Source: Prosopocoilus inquinatus (Eukaryota > Arthropoda > Insecta > Coleoptera > Lucanidae). Taken from it: a stretch of 64,000 bases of DNA. Positions within the stretch are counted from its first letter, which is position 1. Each line of letters starts with the position of its first letter. Below, one piece after another: positions 5,994-50,584 of the stretch. The stretch covers positions 65,286,212 to 65,350,211 of the forward strand of contig CM069870.1 in assembly GCA_036172665.1 (NCBI GenBank). The letters are read 5' to 3'. The notes beneath the pieces are model-generated. The model was not told where the DNA came from, searched no databases, and saw only the letters and a list, made by a program, of their open reading frames with translations. The position numbers were made by a program, and so were the translations under genes.

Positions 5994-6400
5994 TGTAGTT
6001 AGCATACCCGTTTTATTTATTTATTTTGTGTGAATTAAAGTTTATTTAGGGTGGGGTTGTTTTAGTTTAGTGTTTTAGTTTAGTGTCATTGTCGACTCTT
6101 TCCAGTGCTCAAGTGTCTTGAGTATACCCGACGACAAGCGTCATTGTCGACATTTTCCAGTGCTCAAGTGTCTTGAGTATACCCGTCGACTCTTTCCAGT
6201 GCTCAAGTGCCTTGAGTATACCCGACGGCAAGTGTCTTGTCGGTTCTGATTTGAGCATGAATGTAAGTAACTGTGTAAAGATATGTAAATAAATTTGTAT
6301 ATAAGTTAACCTACCTGTATTTTTATTTAAGCGAACCTGGACACCGGCGAGTTAAAATCCCGGAACGTAGTCCCTAGATACCCGAATATTATAGATACAA
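5994..6400. repeat. Possible LTR remnant containing a three-copy minisatellite
   Basis: Starts TGTAGTTAGC immediately beside the mariner end and carries an AATAAA-like signal near 6288. Three copies of a segment beginning GTCGAC and containing TTTCCAGTGCTCAAGTG lie at 6091, 6146 and 6185. The LTR idea rests on general look only: no second LTR, no target-site duplication and no coding region were found. The tandem copies are certain. Confidence 0.3.
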
Positions 6401-6427
6401 GACAAACAAACATACTATGACAAACTA

Positions 6428-7458
6428 ATGTCAAGTTATCTCAATAATCGATCTCAGCGTGTAGTATTGCAAGGTGACGTTTCAGATTTGTTGTACTTAT
6501 ACATGGGGGTCCCACAAGGCAGTATATGCGGTCCACTTTTATTCACGATTTATACGAGTCGATTTCCATACGAATTAACTGTATGTAATTATCATCAGTA
6601 CGCAGATGACACTCAGATGCATTATTCGTTTACTTGCAATGATTGGAAGGTAGCTGAAGTTGCTATTAATAGCGATTTGGCTCGATTGATACGTATATCT
6701 GAAATGCACGGACTAATTATCAATCCTGCTAAATCGTCGTTGATATTATATGGAGGTGGATGTCAAAGAGAATTTGTTGAAAATAATATTACTATTTGTG
6801 TGAAAAATATTCCAATTAAAATTAACGAAGCTAGTAAAAATTTGGGGATCATTTTTGACTCTAATTTTCGCTTTTTAAGGAGTATGTGTCTGTGCTCATC
6901 CGGCGCGCTTACGGTAAATTAAGGATGCCATACTCTAGCAGACATTTATTAGATTACAAGTTGCAAAAAATGCTATTTGAGACCCTGGTGTTATCAACAT
7001 TCAATTATTGCGACTACTTGTACGGTCCATGTCTGGATGGTGATGATAAGAGAAAAATTCAACTGCTTCAAAATTCTTGCATACGTTTCATGTCTGGTAT
7101 ACGTAAATTTCAACATATATCTCACGCTTTCATTCAATCGGGTTGGTTAAATATGGAACATAGACGTTACCTGCTTGCTGCATGCTTGTACTATAGAATT
7201 ATAAAATCCGAATCACCACCATACTTATTTAACAAGATTAAGCATCGAACGGATGTTCATAACATTAACATTCGTAAAAAGGACTTTCTGTCAATGCCAC
7301 GCCACAGAACAGCCTTGTTTCAGAGATCATTTTCATTTAATATCGTAAACTGTGTTAATCGTCATTTCCTTCTTTTTAGAGCGACTTCGTTATTAACATT
7401 TAAAAGTAGAATGCGCTCTCAGCTTGTGAGGGAACAATCATTAAGCGGCAGCAGATAG
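6428..7458 (+). pseudogene. LINE reverse transcriptase fragment with one frameshift
   Basis: The protein copies the element RNA into DNA at the target site. The first frame (6428-6922) contains GVPQGSICGP, then the catalytic YADD box (YADDTQMH), then the segment leading to the thumb (NLGIIFDSNF). The second frame (6886-7458) continues the thumb and C-terminal region typical of Jockey/CR1-like elements, with RRAYGKLR, LSTFNYCDYLYG and a hydrophobic tail. The two frames overlap and are joined by a single-base shift at the TTTTT run near 6875. Fingers and endonuclease are missing. No zinc knuckle is visible at the C-terminus. Non-functional. Confidence 0.85.
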
Positions 7459-8053: not shown

Positions 8054-8461
8054 AACAGATAAAATAGCGACATCTTACTATCGCTTTTTGACCTGACATT
8101 GCAGTAGGATAGACAAATTGAAGCGGGATTTGCTCCTAATAAGTCCCCCATGCAAGGTGGCCATGCTTGCTGTCAAAGCATAATGAAAGTTTTCAGAAAA
8201 AATTTGTGCAAATCATTTTTGATTCAATTTGTCTATCCTACTGCAATGTCAGGTCAAAAAGCGATAGTAAGATGTCGCTATTTTATCTGTTCATCACTCT
8301 TACATCGTTATTGCGAATAAATTGGACAAGTCGCTTTTGTTTGCAGTGGGAATATCGAGCTACGTCTCTGCTGAAGAAGCCCCAAGCAGGGCTGAAACAG
8401 GTGTACAGAGGCTGCTCGAGGTTTTCACTGCAATTAGAAACGATTTGCACAAATTTTTTTA
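8054..8461 (+). mobile_element. Hammerhead-ribozyme retroelement, copy 1 (inverted composite)
   Basis: A 408-bp insertion of the repeat family also found at 26484, 34777, 39754 and 49611. The left ~170 bp are in antisense orientation and the right ~235 bp in sense orientation (sense means the ribozyme strand), giving a head-to-head palindrome whose switch point is near 8222. The left end corresponds to the monomer point CGCTATTTTATCTG and the right end to GATTTGCACAAA. Direct repeats AAAAATTTTA flank it at 8044-8053 and 8462-8471, but this is low-complexity sequence, so the duplication is less certain here than at the other loci. It contains no protein gene. Confidence 0.8.
8342..8433 (+). 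ncRNA. Type I hammerhead ribozyme (copy 1)
   Basis: Self-cleaving RNA motif. Core CTGAAGA at 8371-8377; stem II AGCCC/GGGCT with loop CAAGCA; GAAA at 8394-8397; stem III only A-U and C-G closing an AGGT loop; cleavage triplet GTA, with cutting expected after 8405. Stem I pairs the flanks: 7 bp next to the core, a small internal loop, 6 bp, one mismatch, then about 12 bp. The fifth stem-I pair is G-C here where the 49.6-kb copies have G-U, so the pairing is kept. All invariant core bases are present. Stem III is minimal, so it may cleave best as a dimer. Confidence 0.75.
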
Positions 8462-23835: not shown

Positions 23836-25898
23836 TAGAGACCGGATTTATAAGTTTTTACAAGTTTTTTACGCTAACATACCTAAACTTGGCGTTTTGT
23901 ATTTATATGTTTGTCGATTAGAGAAGCCCAAAAATGGTAGTTTTATTTCGCATATAACTTAATATTTTAGACTTTTAGCGCATATTTATTTATTTATCCA
24001 TATATTGATATAAATAACATTATAATTCCATATACGGTCAATATTCAAGTCTGCAGCTTTTCCAAGAAGTAATTTATTCTTCTCAACGTCTGGCCACTTT
24101 ATTTTACGATTTCCCGGAATGTGATTTTCTGGGAATCTGTAGCGACTTGCACTTGCATTTTGCACTTATGTTTTGCATTTCAGTTTGAGATAAGAACTCC
24201 GTGAATGTGTGTGGCTAGTGACTAGTGTATTTATCAACGCGAATTAGTTGTTATTTTCTTATTTAATTTAAAGACGAAATAAATTCAGTGATAGATACCT
24301 TACAAATTCTCTTAAAAATCACATTTTCATTTTGACAATATTTTAAGGTGTCGTCAGACCAAAAGTACCAGATTGATCAACATTTGGCTACAAACCTCCA
24401 TAAGGAGTCGGAGAAAAGATGTGTGTCTAACTTTAATCAGTCTTTTATTTCTTCAACAACCAGTAACTCACAGGGCAGTGACACAGGAAATGAATTCTTT
24501 TTAGACTTGTGCAGTGCTATGGCAGAGTCAAACATTCCTTGGCATAAACTTGAACAAGCAAGTTTTCGAACTTTTGGAAAATGGAAAAATATTGCAATCG
24601 TCATATTCCAAATGAATCGACTTTGCGGAAAAACTATCTAAGTATATGCTACCAGCAACGGATGAAGAAAATAAAAGAGAAGCTTAGCGACAACAATATT
24701 TATATAGTAGTTGATGAAACGACAGATGCCTGCGGTCGTTATGTAGCAAATATGTTAGCAGGAGTATTAAGCAACACAGTTGCACCAATATCTTATTTGG
24801 TAAATAGTGCAGTTTTGGAAAAAACAAATCATTCAACGATCGCACGTTTTATTAACGACAGCTTGACACTTGTATATGCACCTAATCAAGTTAAATCGGA
24901 AAATATATTACTAATGGTGTCTGATGCAGCAGCCTACATGATAAAAGCAGGACAGGCTTTACAGGTGTTTTACCCAAATCTGATGCACTTCACTTGTATG
25001 GCTCACGCAATGAATAGGCTCGCTGAATTGGTGCGACTAGAATACCCAACAGTAAATAAGTTGATCAATAACGGAAAAAAAGGTGTTTCTTAAAGCCCCA
25101 CTGCGTATACAACACTATAAAGAATTAGCTGCTGACCTGCCATTACCACCAGAACCAATAATTACGAGATGGGGTACGTGGCTTGAAGCAGCAAATTTTT
25201 ACGCAGATAACTTTAAACTATTAAAGGAAATTTTCTTAGAATTGGATGATTCCAATTCAGCGGCTTTAAGAATTTGTAAGGAATGCATGTCGAACACAAA
25301 CATCGGGAATCAATTAGCATTCATTAAAACTCATTTTTCGGTTTTAATATCCACCATTAAAAAGTTGGAATCATCCCAGACGGCTCTATTAGATTCTTTT
25401 GAAGTGGTCGATGATGCAATTGAAAGTGTAAAATCAATTCCAGGGGAGATAGGAGAGAAGTTAATGGCAAAATTAGGCAAGGTTCTATTACGTAATCCTG
25501 ACTACAATAAAATGAGGACAATCTGTTTAGTTTTAAAAGGTCAAAGTGAAGAGGATTTGGACATGAACCCCAAAGATGTAGCATCCATGAAATTTGCGCC
25601 CATTACTTCATGCGATGTCGAGCGTTCGTTTTCCTCTTATAAAAATATTTTGACAGACAGACGACAAAATTTTACTCCAAATAATTTAAATCAACTGTTG
25701 ATTATATTTTGTAATCCTACTATTTAAGTGTTAAGTGTTAAAATTACTTATATGAAACAATTTATGTTTTTATTATTCTAAAGTATGTATAAGTAAAATA
25801 AAATTTTTATCGCATATAATATCCATATTTTGATCCATTTTAATCGCATAAAAAAAACTTATTTTCCACTTTTTTAGCACATATAAATCCGGACTTTA
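23836..25898 (+). mobile_element. hAT transposon, inactive, with 8-bp target duplication
   Basis: A 2,063-bp element flanked by ATCATGAA at 23828-23835 and 25899-25906, a perfect 8-bp duplication as hAT elements make. The ends share TARAG-CCGGATTTATA as inverted repeats. Short GCATATAA-type motifs recur just inside both ends and may be transposase-binding sites. One transposase gene on the plus strand is broken by frameshifts. The right copy of the surrounding tandem duplication (near 28700) lacks the element and serves as an empty site. Confidence 0.95.
24348..25727 (+). pseudogene. hAT transposase with two frameshifts
   Basis: Encodes the enzyme that excises and inserts hAT elements. The first part carries the end of a BED-type zinc finger (HLATNLHKESEKR); its cysteine half is not in frame upstream, so an intron or loss is likely. 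The frame then shifts near 24578 into the segment with VVDETTD (first catalytic Asp), then MVSDAAAYM (second Asp) and CMAHAMNRLAE (C..H pair). A second shift lies in the A7 run near 25079. The last part ends with DVERSFSSYKNILTDRR, the hAT C-terminal dimerisation region that holds the catalytic Glu. Key residues are present, so only the frameshifts and the missing finger disable it. Confidence 0.9.
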
Positions 25899-26483
25899 AT
25901 CATGAAGGACAAAAATTGAAGAATTAAACAAGCTCTAATTTTTAAAAGTGGATAAAACGCAAGTAAATTTGCGAGCAAGTTCAAGAGGTAAGTGAAGAAA
26001 GTGATACGCAAAGTAGGTACGGTCATGCATTTTAGTAATGTCTCTCCATCAAAATTTTAAATTGCGGTCTAAGATTTAAACAAACACATGTATTTCATGT
26101 TTTTTTTTTTTTTTTAATTTTATGCTTGTTTATGTTTTTGTTTGCATGTCTGCCTCTCTCTTGCAGTGGTGAGAAAATATTAGGCTTCACTTTAAAAATT
26201 GTAGAGGAAACCTGATTGTACATCACTCAACGACTTATGAGAAGTGTACTTCAATTAATGTAATAAAAACATTTTCTAAAAATCGTTTGAAATACGCAAA
26301 GATGACGTAAGGAATGCCGAATACAAAATTGGTTTCGAATGCGTTCTAAGGTTCTCATTCTTTTCTTTTTTGTTTTGCTAGGTTATATAAGAGGAATATT
26401 GATAAAAAGTGTCAAGCAGAGTCGGAGAAATAATACCAACATTAAAGTAGGACATTCCCCCTCGAAGTGACGTTAAAGAATTT

Positions 26484-27015
26484 TAGAAAAATTTTGTGCA
26501 AATCGTTTTTGATTGCAGTGAGAACCTCGAGCAGCCTCTGGACAGCTGTTTCAGCCCTGCTTGGGGCTTCTTCAGCAGAAACGTAGCTCGACATTCCCAC
26601 TGTAGACCAAAAACGACTTGCCCAATTTATTCACAAATGCGATGTAAGAATGATGAACATATAAAATAGCGACATCTTACTATCGCTTTTTGACCTAACA
26701 TTGCAGTAGGATAGACAAATTGAAGCGGGATTTGCTCCTAATGAGTCCCCCATGCAAGGCGGCCATGCTTGCTGTCAAAGCATAATGAAAGATTTTAGAA
26801 AAATTTTGTGCAAATCGTTTTTGATTGCAGTGAGAACCTCGAGCAGCCTCTGGACATTTGCACAAAATTTTTCTAAAATCTTTCATTATGCTTTGACAGC
26901 AAGCATGGCCGCCTTGCATGGGGGACTCATTAGGAGCAAATCCCGCTTCAATTTGTCTATCCTACTGCAATGTTAGGTCAAAAAGCGATAGTAAGATGTC
27001 GCTATTTTATATGTT
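26484..27015 (-). mobile_element. Hammerhead-ribozyme retroelement, copy 2 (inverted composite)
   Basis: A 532-bp insertion between perfect 13-bp direct repeats CGTTAAAGAATTT (26471-26483 and 27016-27028). From the left it reads antisense through a complete ribozyme, then a second antisense monomer that stops at 26855, about 4 bases past the predicted cleavage site, and then switches to sense until TTATATGTTC. The arms around 26856 form a near-perfect palindrome of about 160 bp per side. Mirror-image open frames here (26695-26919 and 26752-26976) are by-products of that palindrome. Confidence 0.92.
26514..26604 (-). ncRNA. Type I hammerhead ribozyme (copy 2)
   Basis: Minus-strand ribozyme identical in its core to the copies at 49.6 kb: CTGAAGA, AGCCC/GGGCT stem II with CAAGCA loop, GAAA, palindromic ACAGCTGT as stem III, and GTC. 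Cleavage is expected between 26541 and 26540. The outer end of stem I has one C-to-T change (CAGTG preceded by TA rather than TG). A half ribozyme (only the 3' strand of stem I and the GTC) follows at 26824-26855. Confidence 0.8.
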
Positions 27016-27183
27016 CGTTAAAGAATTTATTTAAACTTCACTTAACAAAAGATCAAACTATAATTATATTAATAATTTTGGTCGCAAGTGCACAGTTATA
27101 ATAAAATGAAGGAAAGGTGAATGGACAAGTAACTTAAAATATAAAATACAAAAAATATAAATGTAAGTAACCTTACATTAGAC

Positions 27184-30839: not shown

Positions 30840-32890
30840 ATCTTTATTTTTTGATGTTTTATGCATTTCGCTCCATTTCTTCTGCAGCCTCCCTTCTGTT
30901 ATCTTTTATTCTTTTCTTTCTTATTTTGTCCCAGTCGTCTTTCTTTTTCTGCATTTTAAATTGATTTTCTTGTTTCCTTGTCACTTTTTCTGCACCCCCT
31001 GTTCTCTTATCTTTTATTCTTTGTTTTTCTCAATTTGTTCTCATCGTCTTTCTTTCTATGCATATTTTTGTTTCCTTGTCACTTTTTCTGTACCCCTGTT
31101 CTCTTATCTTTTATTCTTTTTTTCCTCAACTTGTTCATATCGTCTTTCTTTCTTTGCATATTTTTGTTTCCTTGTCACTTTTTCTGTACCGCCTCTTCTC
31201 TTACCTTTTATTCTTTTCTTCCTTATTTTATCCCAGTCGTCTTTCTTTTTCTGCATTTTAAATTGATTTTTTTGTCTCCTTGTCACTTTTTCTGCACCCC
31301 TGTTCTCTTATCTTTTATTCTTTTTTTCCTCAACTTGTTCATATCGTCTTTCTTTCTTTGCATATTTTTGTTTCCTTGTCACTTTTTCTGTACCGCCTCT
31401 TCTCTTACCTTTTATTCTTTTCTTCCTGATTTTGTCCCAGTCGTCTTTCTTTTTCTGCATTTTAAATTGACTTTTTTGTTTCCTTGTAACTTTTTCTGCA
31501 CCCCCTCTTCTCTTATCTTCTATTCTTTTTTTCCTCAATTTGTTCTTATCGTCTTTCTTTCTTTGCATATTTTTGTTCCCTTGTCACTTTTTCTGCACCC
31601 CCCTGTTCTCTTATCTTTTATTCTTTTTTTCCTCAATTTATTTTCATCGTCTTTCTTTCTTTGCACATTTTTGTTTCCTTGTCACTTTTTCTGTACCGCC
31701 TCTTCTCTTACCTTTTATTCTTTTCTTCCTGATTTTGTCCCAGTCGTCTTTCTTTTTCTGCATTTTAAATTGATTTTTTTGTTTCCTTGTCACTTTTTAT
31801 GCACCCCCCTGTTCTCTTATCTTTTATTCTTTTTTTCCTCAATTTATTTTCATCGTCTTTCTTTCTTTGCAAATTTTTGTTTCCTTGTCACTTTTTCTGT
31901 ACCGCCTCTTCTCTTACCTTTTATTCTTTTCTTCCTGATTTTGTCCCAGTCGTCTTTCTTTTTCTGCATTTTAAATTGATTTTCTTGTTTCCTTGTCACT
32001 TTTTCTGCACCCCCTGTTCTCTTTTTTTTCTCAATTTGTTCTCATCGTCTTTCTTTCTATGCATATTTTTGTTTCCTTGTCACTTTTTCTGTACCGCGTC
32101 TTCTCTTACCTTTTATTCTTTTCTTCCTGATTTTGTCCCAGTCGTCTTTCTTTTTCTGCATTTGAAATTGATTTTCTGTTTCCTTGTCACTTTTTCTGCA
32201 CCCCCTCTTCTCTTATCTTTTATTCTTTTTTTCCTCAATTTGTTTTTCTTCTTTCTTTTTTTGCATATTTTTGTTTCCTTGTCACTTTCTCTGTACCGCC
32301 TCTTCTCTTACCTTTTATTCTTTTCTTCCTGATTTTGTCCCAGTCGTCTTTCTTTTTCTGCATTTTAAATTTACTTTTTTGTTTCCTTGTAACTTTTTCT
32401 GCACCCCCTCTTCTCTTATCTTCTATTCTTTTTTTCCTCAATTTGTTCTTATCGTCTTTCTTTCTTTGCATATTTTTGTTTCCTTGTCACTTTTTCTGCA
32501 CCCCCCTGTTCTCTTATCTTTTATTCTTTTTTTCCTCAATTTATTTTCATCGTCTTTCTTTCTTTGCAAATTTTTGTTTCCTTGTCACTTTTTCTGTACC
32601 GCCTCTTCTCTTACCTTTTATTCTTTTCTTCCTGATTTTATCCCAGTTGTCTTTCTTTTTCTGCATTTTAAATTGATTTTTTTGTTTCCTTGTCACTTTT
32701 TCTGCACCCCGCTGTTCTCTTATCTTTTATTCTTTTTTTTCCTCAATTTGTTCTCATCGTCTTTCTTTCTTTGCATATTTTTGTTTCCTTGTCTCTTTTT
32801 CTGTACCGCCTCTTCTCTTACCTTTTATTCTTTTCTTCCTCGTTTTGTTCTCATCTCTTTCTTTTTTGCATTTTAAATTGATTTTTTTTT
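30840..32890 (+). repeat. Pyrimidine-rich satellite of ~101-bp subunits, dimer/trimer pattern
   Basis: About 20 subunits, each with TTTCCTTGTCACTTTTTCTG followed by CACCCC or TACCGCC. Type-1 subunits end in CTGCATTTTAAATTGA, type-2 in TTTGCATATTTTTG. The type-1 landmark recurs at steps of about 302, 204, 303, 206, 192, 202, 303 and 205 bases, so units come as 1-2 dimers or 1-2-2 trimers. Roughly 80% of bases are C or T on the plus strand. Long stop-free frames (333, 230 and 181 codons) result from this composition and contain only repeated Phe/Leu/Ser/Cys, so they are not called as genes. Confidence 0.93.
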
Positions 32891-34776: not shown

Positions 34777-34952
34777 AAAGCATAAGTAACGACATCTGTG
34801 ATCGCCTTTTGAAGTATCAGTTGCGAATATCCTTGGACAAGTCATTTTGGTTTGCAGTGGAACTCTCGAGCTGACGAAACCCCAAGTAGGGCTGAAACGG
34901 GTGTGCAGAGGATTCTCGAGGGATTCACTGCAATTAGAAACGATTTGCAGCA
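34777..34952 (+). mobile_element. Degenerate hammerhead element, copy 3
   Basis: Runs from a decayed AAAAGC-ATAGTAA block through the ribozyme region to AAACGATTTGCAG in sense orientation only. The ribozyme is broken: about 10 bases of inner stem I are deleted, stem II has one mismatch, and the cleavage triplet is GTG, which does not support cleavage. CTGACGA and GAAAC remain. Flanking duplications are not recognisable. This is an old, probably dead copy. Confidence 0.75.
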
Positions 34953-36600
34953 ACATTTAATAGTTAGCAGATTTATATCAGAATATTTTTTTCCTTTTTT
35001 TTTGTTTTAATTATCGGAACGGCTTGTTTATTTCCGCTCTCTATTTTAATCTTCTCTTCCCGCGATAATTAAATTTTTTTCTTAAAATGATCTCTACTTA
35101 TTCATTCAAAGTACAAAAACGACTTTCTTTCATGATTTTCTGAACTAATTCATCAATCATCGTATCGGGCATATCTAAACACGTCCGTTGAACTTTTTTT
35201 TTTAAATTGGCATGCGCTGCATCGCGTGCTGTGAATAAGGGAAACTTCTTGGAAAAGTCGTTACGTTCAGGAATGCCGGCGAAAAAATTGCGAAACCGCA
35301 AATTAAAACATCTGGTGTTTATTTTGGTCGTAAATCATTCCGGGCGCCCCCACGAAAAAAAAAACAAACTGGAAACATCCCACGCAGGTACACCCGGAAA
35401 ATCTGCTCCGGTTGGTTTTCTGGGAAATGCACTCGAACTCGAATCGTGCACAAAAAGTTTTGGGGCGGGAAAACTCCACGAATTTTTTATTGAAATCAAT
35501 TGTTTTAGCCCTTGTAATAATTGATCTTTTCACTTGTGTAATCTGCATCTCATCTCTTGTCTTTTCTTTAAAAGCTTCATCATCTTTTAATTATACTCTT
35601 TCAAAGTCATAATTAAAATATGTAGAAATGGAACGAGATTTTATATTGTAGATTTGAGGGATGCCCCCTGGTATTTTTTTTTGTTTTCTGTGGACCAAAC
35701 ATCGTAAATACTAACATAAAATCAAAACGCGAAAAATATTTTCTCGCCGCCGCGTCGCAACATAAAACAGACAGGGCGCGAGGAAAACCTCAAGCGGGCA
35801 AACATCCGGCGAATAATACACTTATATCGACACAATTAAATTTTTCATAAATAACAGAGAGCCATAAAGAGCAACGTTTACGTCGATGCACGTCCATAAA
35901 CCATCGATCCGCCAACGATATTTTCCCGCGCGCTTTCTCCCCGTGCATCCCGGAAGCGATCTAATGGGTTTTGTTTCCATTAAGCCGTCGGTATAAAACG
36001 AACGACGTCGACGGTTGAACTGCACTCGATAAATTATTAACACGGGACATTACTTAATACAACGGTCAACATTACTTTAAAGACCTCTTCAAGTCTCAAG
36101 ACTCTACTACCACCCTAATGAATTTATTTCATCTCCTGAATAATTAACAAAAAGAAGAAAAAAATGGGAGCACCAAGACAACAATTCAATGACAGAGAAA
36201 AAATAATTTATAGTAAATAGAAATAAATACAGGGCTAACGTTAAAGGTAGGTTGTATTTCATCAAATGATCATAAATTTTTCAAAATACAAAAAGGTTTG
36301 TACGGTTGGAAATTTCCTGTCGTCTCACAGTAACCCATGTAACAAAAAAAAAATTAATCTCTAGTACTTGAATCGACTCTATCGTTAACAAAAGCAGTGT
36401 AATTACGACTGAGAAATATTACCGAGGAAAAGTTAAGTATTGACTTTAATAAAAAAAAATTGTAATGATTGAATTAACTTGTCTGGTACAAGGTGAGGCA
36501 TAAACTAGGCAACCAAAGTTGCACGTCAGTTAAAAGAACTAAAAAGGTATCTTGTAAGACGAGTCCGTAGATAAGTAGCGATGATCAATCCGAGTGACGA
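34953..36600. other. Non-coding DNA, no gene recognised
   Basis: AT-rich with GC-richer patches (35200-35480, 35880-36020). Nothing recognised. The 35880-36050 block has the mixed composition often seen in conserved non-coding DNA, but this cannot be tested from one sequence. Confidence 0.5.
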
Positions 36601-39753: not shown

Positions 39754-39920
39754 CTTAGAAAAATTTTGTGCAAATCGTTTTTGATTGCAGTGAAAACCTC
39801 GAGCAGCCTCTGGACAGCTGTTTCAGCCCTGCTTGGGGCTTCTTCAGCAGAAACGTAGCTCGACATTTCCACTGCAATGTCAGGTCAAAAAGCGATAGTA
39901 AGATGTCGTTATTTTATCGG
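39754..39920 (-). mobile_element. Hammerhead-ribozyme retroelement, copy 4 (shortest)
   Basis: A 167-bp insertion flanked by TTAATTTT (39746-39753 and 39921-39928). It reads antisense through one complete ribozyme, then switches at the shared hexamer ACTGCA (39871-39876) to a short sense tail ending GTTATTTTATCGG. The other arm of the surrounding palindrome has the uninterrupted target, so the boundaries are confirmed within this window. Confidence 0.9.
39786..39876 (-). ncRNA. Type I hammerhead ribozyme (copy 4)
   Basis: Complete core on the minus strand: CTGAAGA, AGCCC-CAAGCA-GGGCT, GAAA, ACAGCTGT, GTC. Cleavage is expected between 39813 and 39812. In the outer helix this copy has GAAA opposite TTTT where the 49.6-kb copies have GGAA opposite TTCT, so pairing is preserved despite changes on both strands. 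Confidence 0.8.
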
Positions 39921-41599
39921 TTAATTTTTTTAATTTTAATAATTTTTATAAGGAACCAAAATGTAGAAATGAAAATTTTAATGCCAGCAACTTGATCAAA
40001 ATTTCTAAAAAAAATCTCAAATATACCTTTAAGATACTCAAGCAATCCTACAAAAGATCAGAATGGAATTTTTAAGAGTTATTGAGAAATTAAATAATTT
40101 AGAAGGTCATGCGTTATGAATCAATCGACTTGCCGTAGTACTGAGTCGCTCCACGTCGAATCGAACATCTTCGGAACATGACACCTTTGTATTTGCTCCA
40201 ATTTCCTTAATACGTTCCCCATATTAAAATAATTAACGCGTATTTTTTTGTTTTTGTTTTAGTGGAAGACAATTATTCGGTCATATATAAAATATTGCTT
40301 TATCCGTATATTCGCATGGAACCTAATAACAAAAGTGTTATTCCGCAGGTTTCATAAATCGCAAGTATTTTATGCTTACTATTTTTTAATGTTCAATTAA
40401 AATATAAAATGCACCCCTTTTAGGGGGTTTTACTTTAAAATACGAATTTATATATCAGAGACATACTTTACAAAATCTAAAAAAAGCATCATTATTTCTT
40501 TAAACTTATTTACATTTAAATATGTATACTGCGTTCACGAATTGGGTTCGCAAAAGGAAAAACTTCTTCATTTTTGAGTTTTCAAAAAAAAAAAAATCAT
40601 TCATTGCTTGTTCCAAAACCCTCAAAAACGTTATCGGAAACGATAATTTCCTTTCGACTTTCATAAAATATGGCAAAGCAAAAATTCCGAATAAAATCAA
40701 GTTAGTCGGTATTGTCAGTCAAAGTTACTAAGTTGAGTGAAATAGCTATTTAGGCAAGAATATCAATTCTAGATTCTAAAGAAGCACAGTTATTTCTTAT
40801 TCGAATTCCAATTTTGAAAACAATAAATTTAAATAAGTAAATAAGCTTAAAGAAACAATGACTTTTTCGATTTTGTAAAATAAGTCGCTGATATATAAAT
40901 TCGTATTTTAAAAATAAAACTCCCTAAAAGAGGTACATTTTAAACTTTAATTGAACATTAAAAATATTAAGCACGAGACGCTTGGGATTTATAAAACCTT
41001 CGGAATAACACACTTTTCTTAGTAGACTACTTACGAATAAAGCAATATTTTATAAATGACCAAATAATGGTCTCCCACTAAAACAAAAAAAAATGCGAGT
41101 TAATTATTTTAATATGGGGAACATATTAAAGAAATTGGAGCAAATGCAACGATGTTATGTTCCGCAGATGTTCGATTCGACGTGGAACGACTCAGTGCTA
41201 CGACAAGTCAACCGATTCACAGCACATGACCTTGTAAATTATTTAATTTCTCAATAACTCTTAAAAATTCCATTCTGATCTTTTGTAGGATTGCTTGAGT
41301 ATCTTAAAGGTATATTTGAGATTTTTTTGGAAATTTGGATCAAGTCGCTGGCATTGAAAATGTCATTTATACATTTTGGTGTCCTACAAAAATTATTAAA
41401 ATTTAAGAAATTATTTTTTATTTCAGGTGTAATTGAAGCACATATTACAACCTTCAAAATAAGCCAGAGTCTGTATTTCTCTGATTCCTAATACTAGAAA
41501 TATTCTGACTTAGTCACAATGATGCATGCAATGTTTCATAAATTTGATTGCTCCATATTTGCCAAAATAATTAAAATGGGTAGGTAGTTGAGTGAATTG

Positions 41600-46287: not shown

Positions 46288-48569
46288 CCCTTCCGTGGCC
46301 ATGCTAAAGAAGTATACCTCACAGACCATGCGGGGTAACTCAGATACCCCACTTTTTTTCTTAGTTTTTGACATGTTACTCGTTTTATATTTATTTAAAC
46401 GATATCATGAGTCAAAATAAATACAATAAAACATCTTTCATAAGTACTAAATAACAATTTATTTAATTTCTAAATTATAAAGTCAAAAAAATCAAACTTG
46501 TTCTTCTTGGTAGTTAGGATAAAAATATTTTTTAATTTCTGTCCTGTGGATATTGCAAATTGTTTTTCCGCATGTGTGGCATGAAATTCTAGACTTTCGG
46601 TCACGTTTTCTAGGACAAAATAAGCAACCTTGAACTTGCAGAATTTTGAGGTATGTCTACGGGTGGGTGTTCTTGTGGTTGTTCTGGAACATTTACGGTC
46701 GGATGATCTTCTACTTGTCCGGGAACATTTACGAATGATTGTTCGCCATTTTGTTCCAAAAACAAGTCAATAGCATATTTTACAGCTTTATGAAAATTTT
46801 TACAATTACATTTTTTCTGCTGTAGATTTGGCAGTGCAATTTCTTGTGCTCATTTTTGAAGAAAATGTCTACGATAGCTTCTGTCTTTACATAAATCTGT
46901 GTTTTTCTGAGTAAAAATGATGTACGCATTTAGAGCAGCCATATCAATTATTTCCATGAAAATTCTAAGTGGCCACCTGTTTGTTGTACGAACACAAGTA
47001 TATTCCCTGGTCATATGATCGCCAGTGTCAACTGCACTTTTTGTTTTATTATAATGAATGTTTATCTCTGGTTTATTTTGCGCATCACCAGTTGTCTTAG
47101 CACCGTAAAACTGAGTCGAGAGTAAAAGAACAGCCTTTCTCTTTTTGGGAACATATGACACTAGTGTCAATTTATCCGAAAACCCAAATATGCTGGAATA
47201 TTCTGGACGTGATACATGAGGTAAAAATTCATTAGGAACTTCACTTTTATTTACTCTAAGTGTTCCAGTAATTGTAACTCCTCTCCATGAACCAAAGTAC
47301 GGCCTTACCATGTCCAAAACAACTCTTTGTCCTTGATTTACCTCTCTTTGATTATTTACCATTCCAGTGTAGACTTGGCTGTTTAGTATATAGGCTGCTT
47401 CAGAATTCGCACACACCCAAATTTTTATGATGTATCGTCCGGGTTTACTTTTTATATACATTCTAAACGGGCATTTCCCACGAAATGTTGGCAAACGTTC
47501 ATCGACCGTAACATTTGTGTTTGGGGAAAAGTTTGTTATGCAATTCTTGACGAAACTATCATACATTTGACGTATTGCTTCCAATTTGTCTTCACTTGCT
47601 TGAATTCTCTCAATTCTAGTTGATGGATCATCAAATCTGATGTGCCTGTAGATATCTTTGAACCTATTATCAAAAAAACGGCTGTAAAGTAAGGCTGCTT
47701 GAATAATTCATTTTCAGTCCACATTTCAGTAAGGTGCAGTTTTCTTCCACGATTTCTACCACCAGCAATAAGTATGCCAATAAAAGCTTGCATTTCCTCC
47801 ATTGTGACTTCTTTCCATCGCTTTTCCTGTTCAGGATGCTCTTCATTGCATTTGGAAATATACTTGTTTCCTTGTCTATTTGTGTGAACACATGTCTGTG
47901 AGCATGTCCTCCGTTATGAAGAGCTTGAAAGCTTCTAAAATTGAAGAAATCTGTAAACTAAAGCATATAGTTAAATAACATCAGCATTCTAACTATATTT
48001 TATACAATTCACAGTACATAACACATATCTTACCTAGAATTTTGTAAACCAACTCTTGCGTTCACAATATTGTGTGTTAGACGTCGTGTTCTTGCAGGCG
48101 TTGTAGATTTCCATTCAAATCCAGATTTTGATTTATAAATGATTTCATTGTCGAGCGGCTCTATACTTTCATCATCCTCTTCAGCTTCCGCTTCCACTAA
48201 ACTTGATTGACGATAAAATAAATGCATTTTATACAAGATTCATCCTATTCGAAACACGAAATTTGATGACGCTTAGCATCGGTTAGATAATAAAATAAAC
48301 GCATTTTATGCAAGACTCAAGTTGTTCAAGAAATGCAATTTGGTGTAGCGTGATAGTCCATGCGGGGTAATTTGATTACCCCAACAGGAAACAGTATAAA
48401 GAAATGTATTTCTAAAAATTTAACTTAAACAAATATGCTTCATTAACATATATTAACGTTTATTGAAGGCTTACATAAAATAACATTGCTGTAAATACAA
48501 AAATTACGAAAATATTATAAAATATTTACTCGTGGGGTAACTGACATACCCCGCACGGTCACGGAAGGG
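46288..48569 (-). mobile_element. piggyBac transposon, inactive, at a TTAA site
   Basis: A 2,282-bp element with TTAA on both sides (46284-46287 and 48570-48573), the fixed piggyBac target. The ends are CCCTTCCGTGGCCATGC and, on the other strand, CCCTTCCGTGACCGTGC; a second inner inverted match (GGGGTAACT, then ATACCCC) follows in both. One transposase gene lies on the minus strand. The TTAA, TIR and gene evidence agree. This copy is dead because of the gene damage described separately. Confidence 0.95.
46492..48227 (-). pseudogene. piggyBac transposase, catalytic segment deleted, several frameshifts
   Basis: Exon 1 (ATG at 48227) encodes an acidic N-terminus and ends at NSR with a good donor, TCTAG/GTAAGATATG, at about 48033. 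The intron is ~80-90 bp. The main part contains MEEMQAFIGILIAGG, then TVDERLPTFRGKCP with the first catalytic Asp and VDTGDHMTREYT with the third. Between them, GVTI joins directly to TGTLRVNK: the ~25 residues that normally hold the second catalytic Asp are missing in frame. Other damage: a small indel near 47880, a lost T in the run at 47672-47678, TGA at 46850-46852, and a frame change near 46640. The C-terminus keeps the Cys-rich zinc domain (ISCHTCGKTICNIHR). It cannot be active. Confidence 0.92.
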
Positions 48570-49295: not shown

Positions 49296-49437
49296 TGAGC
49301 CCTAAAACAGGCTCAACAGAAGCACTACGGTGGCCTTAAACGATGGCGTAGCGAGTAGCATAAGAATGGCCAAAAGGATTATAACCTGCTACTCGCTACT
49401 CACCGCAGTGCCTCTGTTGAGCCAGTTTTAGGGCTCA
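49296..49437. mobile_element. Small palindromic MITE
   Basis: A 142-bp foldback with ends TGAGCCCTAAAAC followed by GGCTCAACAGA, inverted at the right end, and inner arms containing GTAGCGAGTAGCA. The unpaired centre is about 40 bases. No gene, and no clear target duplication. Confidence 0.75.
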
Positions 49438-49783
49438 TTTCTGCCGTCCATGAGACAATCCTTTTATCTTCGCTTGCTTCTGCTGTGTCGAACCTGTTTG
49501 ACGAAGACTCAACGACGAGCTGACAACGTGACTAAAGGTGGGATCTTACCTATATATTTGTTTTATCACATGCGTGCCCCTTTAGGAGCAAATTATAATA
49601 ATATACTTTAGTGAACATATAAAATAGCGACATCTTACTATCGCTTTTTGACCTAACATTGCAGTAGGATAGACAAATTGAAGCGGGATTTGCTCCTAAT
49701 GAGTCCCCCATGCAAGGCGGCCATGCTTGCTGTCAAAGCATAATGAAAGATTTTAGAAAAATTTTGTGCAAATCGTTTTTGAT

Positions 49784-49874
49784 TGCAGTGAGAACCTCGA
49801 GCAGCCTCTGGACAGCTGTTTCAGCCCTGCTTGGGGCTTCTTCAGCAGAAACGTAGATCGACATTCCCACTGCA
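49784..49874 (-). ncRNA. Type I hammerhead ribozyme (copy 5, unit 1)
   Basis: Minus-strand ribozyme with a complete core; cleavage is expected between 49811 and 49810. One change (A at 49857, where the other copies have C) weakens one pair in the middle helix of stem I. Confidence 0.8.
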
Positions 49875-50098
49875 GACCAAAAACGACTTGCCCAATTTAT
49901 TCACAAATGCGATGTAAGAATGATGAACATATAAAATAGCGATATCTTACTATCGCTTTTTGACCTAACATTGCAGTAGGATAGACAAATTGAAGCGGGA
50001 TTTGCTCCTAATGAGTCCCCCATGCAAGGCGGCCATGCTTGCTGTCAAAGCATAATGAAAGATTTTAGAAAAATTTTGTGCAAATCGTTTTTTTGGTC

Positions 50099-50189
50099 TG
50101 CAGTGGGAATGTCGAGCTACGTTTCTGCTGAAGAAGCCCCAAGCAGGGCTGAAACAGCTGTCCAGAGGCTGCTCGAGGTTCTCACTGCA
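50099..50189 (+). ncRNA. Type I hammerhead ribozyme (copy 5, unit 2; reference copy)
   Basis: CTGAAGA at 50128-50134 matches the invariant CUGANGA. Stem II pairs 50135-50139 with 50146-50150 around the loop CAAGCA. GAAA lies at 50151-50154. ACAGCTGT (50154-50161) is self-complementary: in one molecule only two pairs and an AGCU loop are possible, in a dimer eight pairs. GTC at 50160-50162 is the cleavage triplet. Stem I: 7 bp beside the core, an internal loop (about three bases opposite one), 6 bp (TCGAGC/GCTCGA), one mismatch, then 12 bp. The internal loop seven pairs from the core is where natural hammerheads contact loop II. Confidence 0.85.
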
Positions 50190-50410
50190 ATCAAAAACGA
50201 TTTGCACAAAATTTTTCTAAAATCTTTCATTATGCTTTGACAGCAAGCATGGCCGCCTTGCATGGGGGACTCATTAGGAGCAAATCCCGCTTCAATTTGT
50301 CTGTCCTACTGCAATGTTAGGTCAAAAAGCGATAGTAAGATGTCGCTATTTTATATGTTCATCATTCTTACATCGCATTTGCGAATAAATTGGGCAAGTC
50401 GTTTTTGGTC

Positions 50411-50501
50411 TGCAGTGGGAATGTCGAGCTACGTTTCTGCTGAAGAAGCCCCAAGCAGGGCTGAAACAGCTGTCCAGAGGCTGCTCGAGGTTCTCAATGC
50501 A
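50411..50501 (+). ncRNA. Type I hammerhead ribozyme (copy 5, unit 3)
   Basis: Same core as unit 2, exactly 312 bases downstream; cleavage is expected after 50474. Together the two sites would release a 312-nt RNA with 5'-hydroxyl and cyclic-phosphate ends. One mismatch (CTCAATGCA) lies in the outer helix of stem I. Confidence 0.82.
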
Positions 50502-50584
50502 ATCAACAACGATTTGCACAAAATTTTTCTAATATACTTTAGGTTAAAATTTTTTTTGGGGTAATTAGATCAATTAACTTTAAA

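Follow-up and report, generated by a model that had tools for sequence, protein, structure and literature searches.

The element at 49612-50529 of the window, a stretch of 64,000 nucleotides from the beetle Prosopocoilus inquinatus (Coleoptera, Lucanidae), is very probably a non-autonomous metazoan retrozyme that owes its mobility to a Penelope-like element. Its structure is more than a tandem repeat: two inverted arms of 312-nt units lie inside a 13-nt target duplication. The same anatomy is observed directly in most of the scored copies of the host genome and in a Penelope-like element of that genome. Here we present the structure of the element, its putative hammerhead ribozymes and the properties of its relatives, together with a proposed mechanism of insertion and the alternatives to it.

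Structure of the element and features of the window

The element and the other copies found in the window have the following parts, where phases refer to the 312-nt unit and A and B are the two sites at which the outer ends fall.

49599..49611, no strand: left target site duplication TAATATACTTTAG, a 13-nt perfect copy of 50530-50542
49612..50092, minus strand: left arm, antisense, 481 nt (1.54 units), RNA phase 272 down to 103, outer end at start site B
49802..49855, minus strand: predicted type I hammerhead ribozyme, antisense copy, matched by model R1 (built partly from this element's own sequences)
50090..50092, no strand: head-to-head arm junction with a 3-nt overlap, from the arm ends of the inverted repeat
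50090..50529, plus strand: right arm, sense, 440 nt (1.41 units), from phase 1 through a full unit to about phase 127-128, outer end at start site A
50118..50171, plus strand: predicted type I hammerhead ribozyme 1, predicted cut after 50162 (motif, alignment of relatives, covariation, model R1)
50430..50483, plus strand: predicted type I hammerhead ribozyme 2, predicted cut after 50474, 312 nt from ribozyme 1 (motif, model R1)
50530..50542, no strand: right target site duplication TAATATACTTTAG, paired with 49599..49611
about 26484..27015, no strand: second copy, antisense then sense arm, ends A/B, 13-nt duplication 26471-26483 / 27016-27028
about 8054..8461, no strand: third copy, 91-93% identity, ends B/A, 10-nt duplication
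39755..39925, no strand: fourth copy, short, ends A/B, only a weak 9-nt candidate duplication
34818..34958, plus strand: old relative, 76% identity, single orientation, decayed hammerhead (cut-site base G), model R1 match

The two arms (inverted repeat I1/I2) are 98-99% complementary. The unit of 312 nt has a GC content of 0.436, and its longest stop-free stretch is 96 aa. No long ORF, such as one with the reverse transcriptase (RT) and GIY-YIG domains of a coding Penelope, was found in the element; it is no Penelope-like coding element itself. One A end and one B end are present in each of three further window copies (second, third and fourth).

The original prediction had placed two sense hammerheads 312 nt apart and one antisense hammerhead in this region, with cuts after 50162 and 50474, and the same three motifs and the same predicted cuts were found. 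Its reading of the locus as retrozyme-like, with 312-nt units that each carry a complete type I hammerhead, is supported by homology to relatives that pass the Rfam threshold, by covariation and by conservation of the core, and further by the unit length, the GC content of 0.44, the lack of a long ORF, the target duplication and the high copy number. The target duplication and four further window copies had been missed in it, as had the inverted two-arm structure, which is the more informative feature.

A read-through RNA of 49612-50529 would give a nearly perfect hairpin of ~340 bp, a possible source of small RNAs. A separate fold-back with 37-nt arms lies at 49296-49437, immediately upstream of the element. 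Look-alikes of microRNAs (Rfam, E<=10) fell on the inverted arms or on a nearby fold-back and were rejected as such; they are explained by the hairpin that the inverted arms would form. Elsewhere in the window, ORFs that by eye resemble those of piggyBac (46850-47707, minus strand), hAT (24554-25727, plus strand) and LINE RT (6395-7458, plus strand) were noted, as well as a T/C-rich minisatellite at 30893-32871 with a period of about 97/206/303 bp.

Hammerhead motif

The core of the motif reads CUGAAGA ... GAAA ... GUC/C, with the slash at the predicted cut. As had been predicted, the invariant hammerhead bases stand in order, and the motif is complete in all three copies; the long stem I with an internal loop was also recovered: it has 7 bp, a 3x1 internal loop and, on its outer side, a long extension. 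Stem II has 5 bp, and stem III is minimal (A-U, C-G, loop AGCU).

The covariance-model search of the window that the original prediction had named as its check returned no Rfam family at gathering score. The best hammerhead match was HH9, with 14.5 bits versus a cut-off of 52 (loose settings), and the low score is likely due to the A at N7 together with the A-U pair at 10.1-11.1. The usual hammerhead pair at 10.1-11.1 is G-C. In the host genome of 650 Mb, the Hammerhead_1 model gave at least eight matches, at least seven of them over the cut-off (74 of 83220 candidates scored). All eight coincide with stretches that align to the 312-nt unit over phases 37-76 or more at 60-86% identity, although two of the eight (L051 and L052) look like one duplicated locus.

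None of the 13 aligned relatives departs from CUGA.G and GAAA in the catalytic columns, and the A9 column is blurred by alignment gaps (five of the 13 rows). The cut-site base is the non-permissive G in two relatives (L049 and window 34861), and the A-U pair at 10.1-11.1 is replaced by G-C in four. Covariation was assessed by five measures on the same relatives: both-sided pair changes were found in 19 cells versus a shuffled mean of 9.2 (none of 500 shuffles reached 19) and the covariation score lay above all 500 shuffles, whereas pairs with double change (6, reached by 147 of 500 shuffles) and further pair types (13, reached by 414 of 500) were not above chance, so that two of the five measures did not exceed the shuffles. 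Homology, the conserved core and the covarying stems together place the motif, as far as comparison of sequences can tell, among the type I hammerheads. Three of the 13 sequences from which model R1 was built come from the window, and the seven matches of R1 there are for this reason partly circular.

Within 59 two-armed insertions, 10 of 2037 sites vary at the 11 core positions versus 1023 of 54029 elsewhere (Fisher p 1e-7, with units non-independent). The cut base in the 195 units profiled is C (183), A (10) or T (2) and never G, i.e., permissive in all. From the low core variation and the permissive cut base, cleavage looks selected. The isolated hammerhead is predicted to prefer a competing fold, which pairs GCUG with CAGC, by 4.9 kcal/mol, and this fold counts against the mechanism proposed below. 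The two-pair stem III and the palindromic ACAGCUGU make action as a dimer plausible.

Insertion anatomy in the genome

A first search of the genome with the element gave at least 103 matches (40 of 313 first-look candidates scored) and a second query at least 182 (40 of 799 first-look candidates scored). The DNA sample comprised 38 + 9 + 12 + 16 genomic stretches. Regarding the 83 matched stretches, nine were cut by the stretch edge, ten had an identity below 90% or a length below 130 nt, and 64 were scored, with the window locus counted among them and the four extra window copies not. L033, L044, L046 and L052 appear to be segmental duplicates of L032, L043, L045 and L051, with which they share arms, phases and identities, and were excluded; L001-L008, L013, L015-L017 and L047-L050 were left out because they had been sampled twice or were used elsewhere. 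The copies are the best matches to two queries, and the sample leans to young copies; of 38 further places from the second query 28 were included, and the omitted ten include several of the longest arrays.

Among the 64 copies, 54 run antisense-then-sense, none runs sense-then-antisense, nine have a single orientation and one is complex (L080). With wide outer-end windows (A, phases 119-143; B, phases 261-284), one A end and one B end were found in 47 of the 54 two-armed copies (for 47 of 49, p is about 4e-12 if A and B are drawn independently). The other seven are A+A (L055), B+B (L029, composite), B+other (three), A+other (one) and neither (one). A target duplication of at least 10 nt is present in 46 of the 54, all of them A+B, and was found in none of the seven; its length is 12 nt (20 copies), 13 nt (19), 10 nt (4) or 14 nt (3). 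In copies with a duplication, A ends fall at phases 119-141 (median 131, n=46) and B ends at phases 264-283 (median 270, n=48), a spread that is partly ambiguity with target bases. L080, the complex copy, carries a duplication of 12 nt and ends in B on both outer sides, and the single-orientation copy L011 has a 13-nt duplication and an end that, judged by eye, is B.

The inner junctions are scattered over the unit, with an overlap of 1-5 nt in 29 of the 54 (BLAST ends). At least one arm exceeds one unit in 49 of the 54 insertions, as do 73 of the 108 arms, and the longest arm measures 2397 nt (7.7 units). The family consists of dispersed retroinsertions with target duplications. Its units lie within the ~170-400 nt of metazoan non-LTR retrozymes and carry a hammerhead each, with a GC content under 45% and no ORF. 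The copies also have the form of a Penelope-type insertion product, namely opposed arms, a short duplication and two alternative fixed ends (tail or no tail).

Head-to-head arms could also arise from self-primed fold-back cDNA, an earlier proposal for Penelope that, as printed, rests on junction palindromes (PMC3846280). Self-priming predicts matching inner phases, whereas the inner phases lie within 15 nt of each other in 4 of 54 insertions versus 5.4 expected by chance; it also predicts the same outer end twice, where A plus B was found instead in the great majority (47/54). Both counts disfavour fold-back self-priming, which is highly improbable for this family. Fixed ends and target duplications would also be expected of an inverted-repeat DNA transposon or a satellite in which the hammerhead is mere decoration, but the scattered inner junction, the arms of unequal length and unit number, the difference between sites A and B and the covarying ribozyme make this origin scarcely credible.

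Template of the two arms

A235C and C311T each occur in 9/9 units of L058, and C197T in 5/5 units of L014; these alleles are rare in the family (235 C in 2/101, 311 T in 4/92 and 197 T in 5/99 arm calls). In a comparison set of 59 insertions (identity >=90%, some cut by the stretch edge), the arms share 113 variants (1000 permutations: mean 33, maximum 64) and differ in 154 (mean 376, minimum 291). In the 26 youngest insertions 30 variants are shared and 30 differ (means 12 and 68, extremes 19 and 55), and much of the sharing, in this young set especially, is due to a pair of common markers, one at phase 276 and one at phase 289. When the comparison is restricted to alleles that occur in at most two insertions, nine are shared, in eight insertions (permuted mean 0.20, maximum 3), and 103 differences between the arms are counted. 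Both arms thus derive from a single template, or from templates that share a source, and many changes arose during copying or afterwards. Such sharing is expected of one circle, and a linear multimer from a homogeneous array would also give it. Mosaic variants in L055 and L057 speak for some mixing of templates; together with the 103 rare-allele differences they are unlike the prediction of one faithful circle and count against it.

In 5 and 2 of 54 insertions the inner end lies no more than 10 nt from the ribozyme cut, versus 3.6 expected. With no clustering of ends there, linear monomers with a fixed 5' end do not usually serve as template. The long arms and the variants shared between arms would fit self-cleavage and circularisation, without proving either. 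It has to be weighed against this that the Penelope mechanism might act on a linear multimeric transcript of a tandem array, with ribozyme cleavage dispensable. This would agree with the insertion of ribozyme-dead RNA in vitro by the Anolis Penelope (PMC11167929), with the variant sharing that homogeneous source arrays could also yield and with the mosaics of L055 and L057; it would leave unexplained why the ribozyme core is about four times less variable than the rest, why the cut base is never G in 195 units and why an arm exceeds one unit in 49 of 54 insertions. We consider a linear multimer unlikely as the template and prefer the self-cleaved, circular RNA.

Two apparent patterns were rejected. 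T276C, present in all L056 units, is a common state of the family and not a private variant. A rule of one G214 unit per insertion reflects sampling at least in part, since G was present in the first query; 76 of 98 arm calls are A, and the query with A brought up the 799 first-look candidates. Arrays with A214 (L011, L055-L058) often contain one or a few G214 units. The recurrence of G214, in a first sample that was G-biased, may reflect misreading of a modified base by the RT, or editing.

Putative start sites in predicted RNA folds

In the circular fold of the window unit, the two most open stretches are predicted at about phases 126-145 and 258-274, where A and B fall. Eight units were tried, of which L022, L027 and L058 gave no full unit. 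In the other five (window, L056, L014, L069, L075) both sites rank among the most open 4-8% of positions, with values for L069 identical to those of the window unit. Pairs of positions 140 apart that are as open as A/B number 10 of 312 in L014 and 1 to 3 in the other units. Several hairpins are predicted between A and B, so that the two sites appear in these models as single-stranded stretches that flank a structured domain.

Penelope-like element as candidate helper

A Penelope protein is reported to cut both strands of the target and to extend each of them, and its RT to start at two adjacent internal sites, the stretch between which is the genomic 'tail' (Frangieh et al. 2024, PMC11167929). 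The host genome contains at least 150 GIY-YIG matches (150 of 2232 candidates scored), of which 95 lie less than 10 kb from a neighbour and 55 are alone among the matches scored. Among the matches scored, neighbouring pairs are '-' then '+' in 47 of 48 cases and '-' '-' in one, and none is '+' then '-'. At C2:41411689-41418268, two same-strand GIY-YIG matches exactly 2604 bp apart are followed by one on the other strand; this Penelope insertion apparently contains more than one lap in one arm.

L098 contains a full copy, with a 788-aa ORF that has RVT_1 (5.2e-15) and GIY-YIG (9.5e-7) domains. This copy has a direct repeat of 187 nt and an oppositely directed second arm, and its duplication measures 12 nt. 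Each of its repeats carries a hammerhead-like CTGAAGA...GAAA (found by pattern search, not by covariance model). The Penelope ends are at u~145 and u~187 (unit coordinates), 41 nt apart, and both are predicted to adjoin the foot of a hairpin (local fold). One of each end is present in all three insertions with both ends visible (L088, L097 and L098, with duplications of 13, 13 and 12 nt), and the single visible ends of L091, L094, L095 and L096 are u~145 or u~187. L099 and L100 have u148 as their left end, and their right arms continue beyond that site to the stretch edge. In short, this young Penelope-like element has the same layout as the retrozyme, with outward arms, 12-13-nt duplications and two fixed ends. 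Its ends fit the two-start-site behaviour described in PMC11167929, which gives a 41-nt tail; the retrozyme ends fit likewise, with ~140 nt.

At least 1069 relatives of the Penelope protein were found (among 7991 candidates), and the five named relatives among the matches listed are all from arthropods, including the beetles Tribolium (51%) and Molorchus (49%). No clear sequence similarity was found between the retrozyme and the sampled Penelope loci, which counts against the proposed mechanism; a match of L090/L092 to retrozyme phase 260-291 was rejected as weak (78% over 32 columns, E 0.085). L090, L092 and L093 belong to a further GIY-YIG repeat family with a hammerhead motif, the fuller form CTGATGAAGCAATAAATACATTGCGAAATATTGAC being present in L090 and L093 and a variant in L092, with inverted arms in L093. 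With at least one such family present besides, the particular helper is not fixed.

Twin priming of the LINE type on a long transcript, with Penelope uninvolved, also gives an inverted 5' part and junction microhomology, and the LINE-RT-like ORF of the window would suit it. It is nevertheless very unlikely here: both outer ends are fixed, internal and without a poly-A tail, the duplications are mostly of 12-13 nt, and the same layout is found in Penelope of the same genome.

Proposed mechanism

In the proposed mobilisation by Penelope, transcripts of the unit would undergo type I hammerhead cleavage at phase 73/74, and the 312-nt RNA would then be closed to a circle and bound by a Penelope RT/GIY-YIG protein. 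We infer both the circular template and the identity of the enzyme. Both target strands would be cut, about 12-13 nt apart to judge from the duplications, and each target 3' end would prime cDNA inside the RNA, one at A (~131) and the other at B (~270). Both primers would use one RNA; both cDNAs would copy it, usually with at least one of them running more than one lap. The point at which they are joined head to head would vary, and they would often overlap there by a few bases.

By analogy, the layout, the duplications and the A/B ends match the behaviour of Penelope in vitro (PMC11167929), which would argue for this mechanism. Against it, the start sites are ~140 nt apart in the retrozyme versus 41 nt in Penelope, 9/64 copies have a single orientation, 7/54 two-armed copies are not A/B, and L080 is B/B with a duplication. 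Insertion by the Anolis Penelope in vitro proceeds without ribozyme cleavage (PMC11167929), which also counts against it.

A wider reading, which as a whole is quite possible and is advanced here tentatively, is that Penelope enzymes are natural two-ended rolling-circle reverse transcribers on one hammerhead-closed RNA. Both cut target strands would prime at the two loops flanking a hairpin domain, each cDNA would circle until the two are joined, and the rule of one A and one B would follow from two RTs, one per side of one RNA.

Comparison with known elements

Newts, schistosomes and cave crickets have satellites whose tandem units, a few hundred bp long, carry a type I hammerhead. The present family differs from these in forming dispersed insertions with target duplications, not long blocks.

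Metazoan non-LTR retrozymes (PMC7229834) are tandem units of 170-400 nt with a type I hammerhead each, low in GC, non-coding and present in many copies, as here; most of the insertions scored here, in contrast, have two opposed arms and fixed outer ends. The words 'inverted' and 'target site' are absent from the main text of that paper. Target duplications are among the features drawn in Figure 2 of a 2020 review, according to its legend (PMC7761336). A literature search, made without supplements and thin on subscription journals, found no report of opposed arms or fixed ends in animal retrozymes. Plant LTR retrozymes are likewise non-autonomous and hammerhead-bearing, with circular RNA, but have type III hammerheads in LTRs and are thought to use Gypsy-type machinery, whereas here the hammerhead is of type I and no such layout is present (PMC7229834 and work cited there).

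Regarding Penelope-like elements, inverted arms, a target duplication and an optional tail at one end are described for Poseidon of Anolis (PMC11167929) and for rotifer Penelope (PMC3846280), as found here, and the Anolis Penelope has a hammerhead in its repeats, as has the window element (PMC11167929). The window element differs from them in the lack of an ORF, the 312-nt unit and start sites ~140 nt apart versus 30-41. It belongs to the metazoan retrozyme kind, and its anatomy, a variant that we did not find described, ties it to Penelope.

Earlier work had only suspected Penelope in the re-entry of animal retrozymes into DNA. It is a strong candidate helper in the Discussion of Cervera and de la Pena 2020 (PMC7229834) and merely a possible one in a guide (PMC8969392), and the 2020 review reports no conserved motif in retrozyme repeats from which the helper could be deduced (PMC7761336). 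The insertion signature described here names a candidate helper and two start sites, and other animal genomes can be tested for its three components, the two arms, the two fixed ends and the target duplication. If the rolling-circle reading is true, the pseudo-LTRs of Penelope (187 nt on a 2604-nt unit) would be the overlap from more than one lap, and retrozymes would be minimal RNAs reduced to the ribozyme and the start-site domain.
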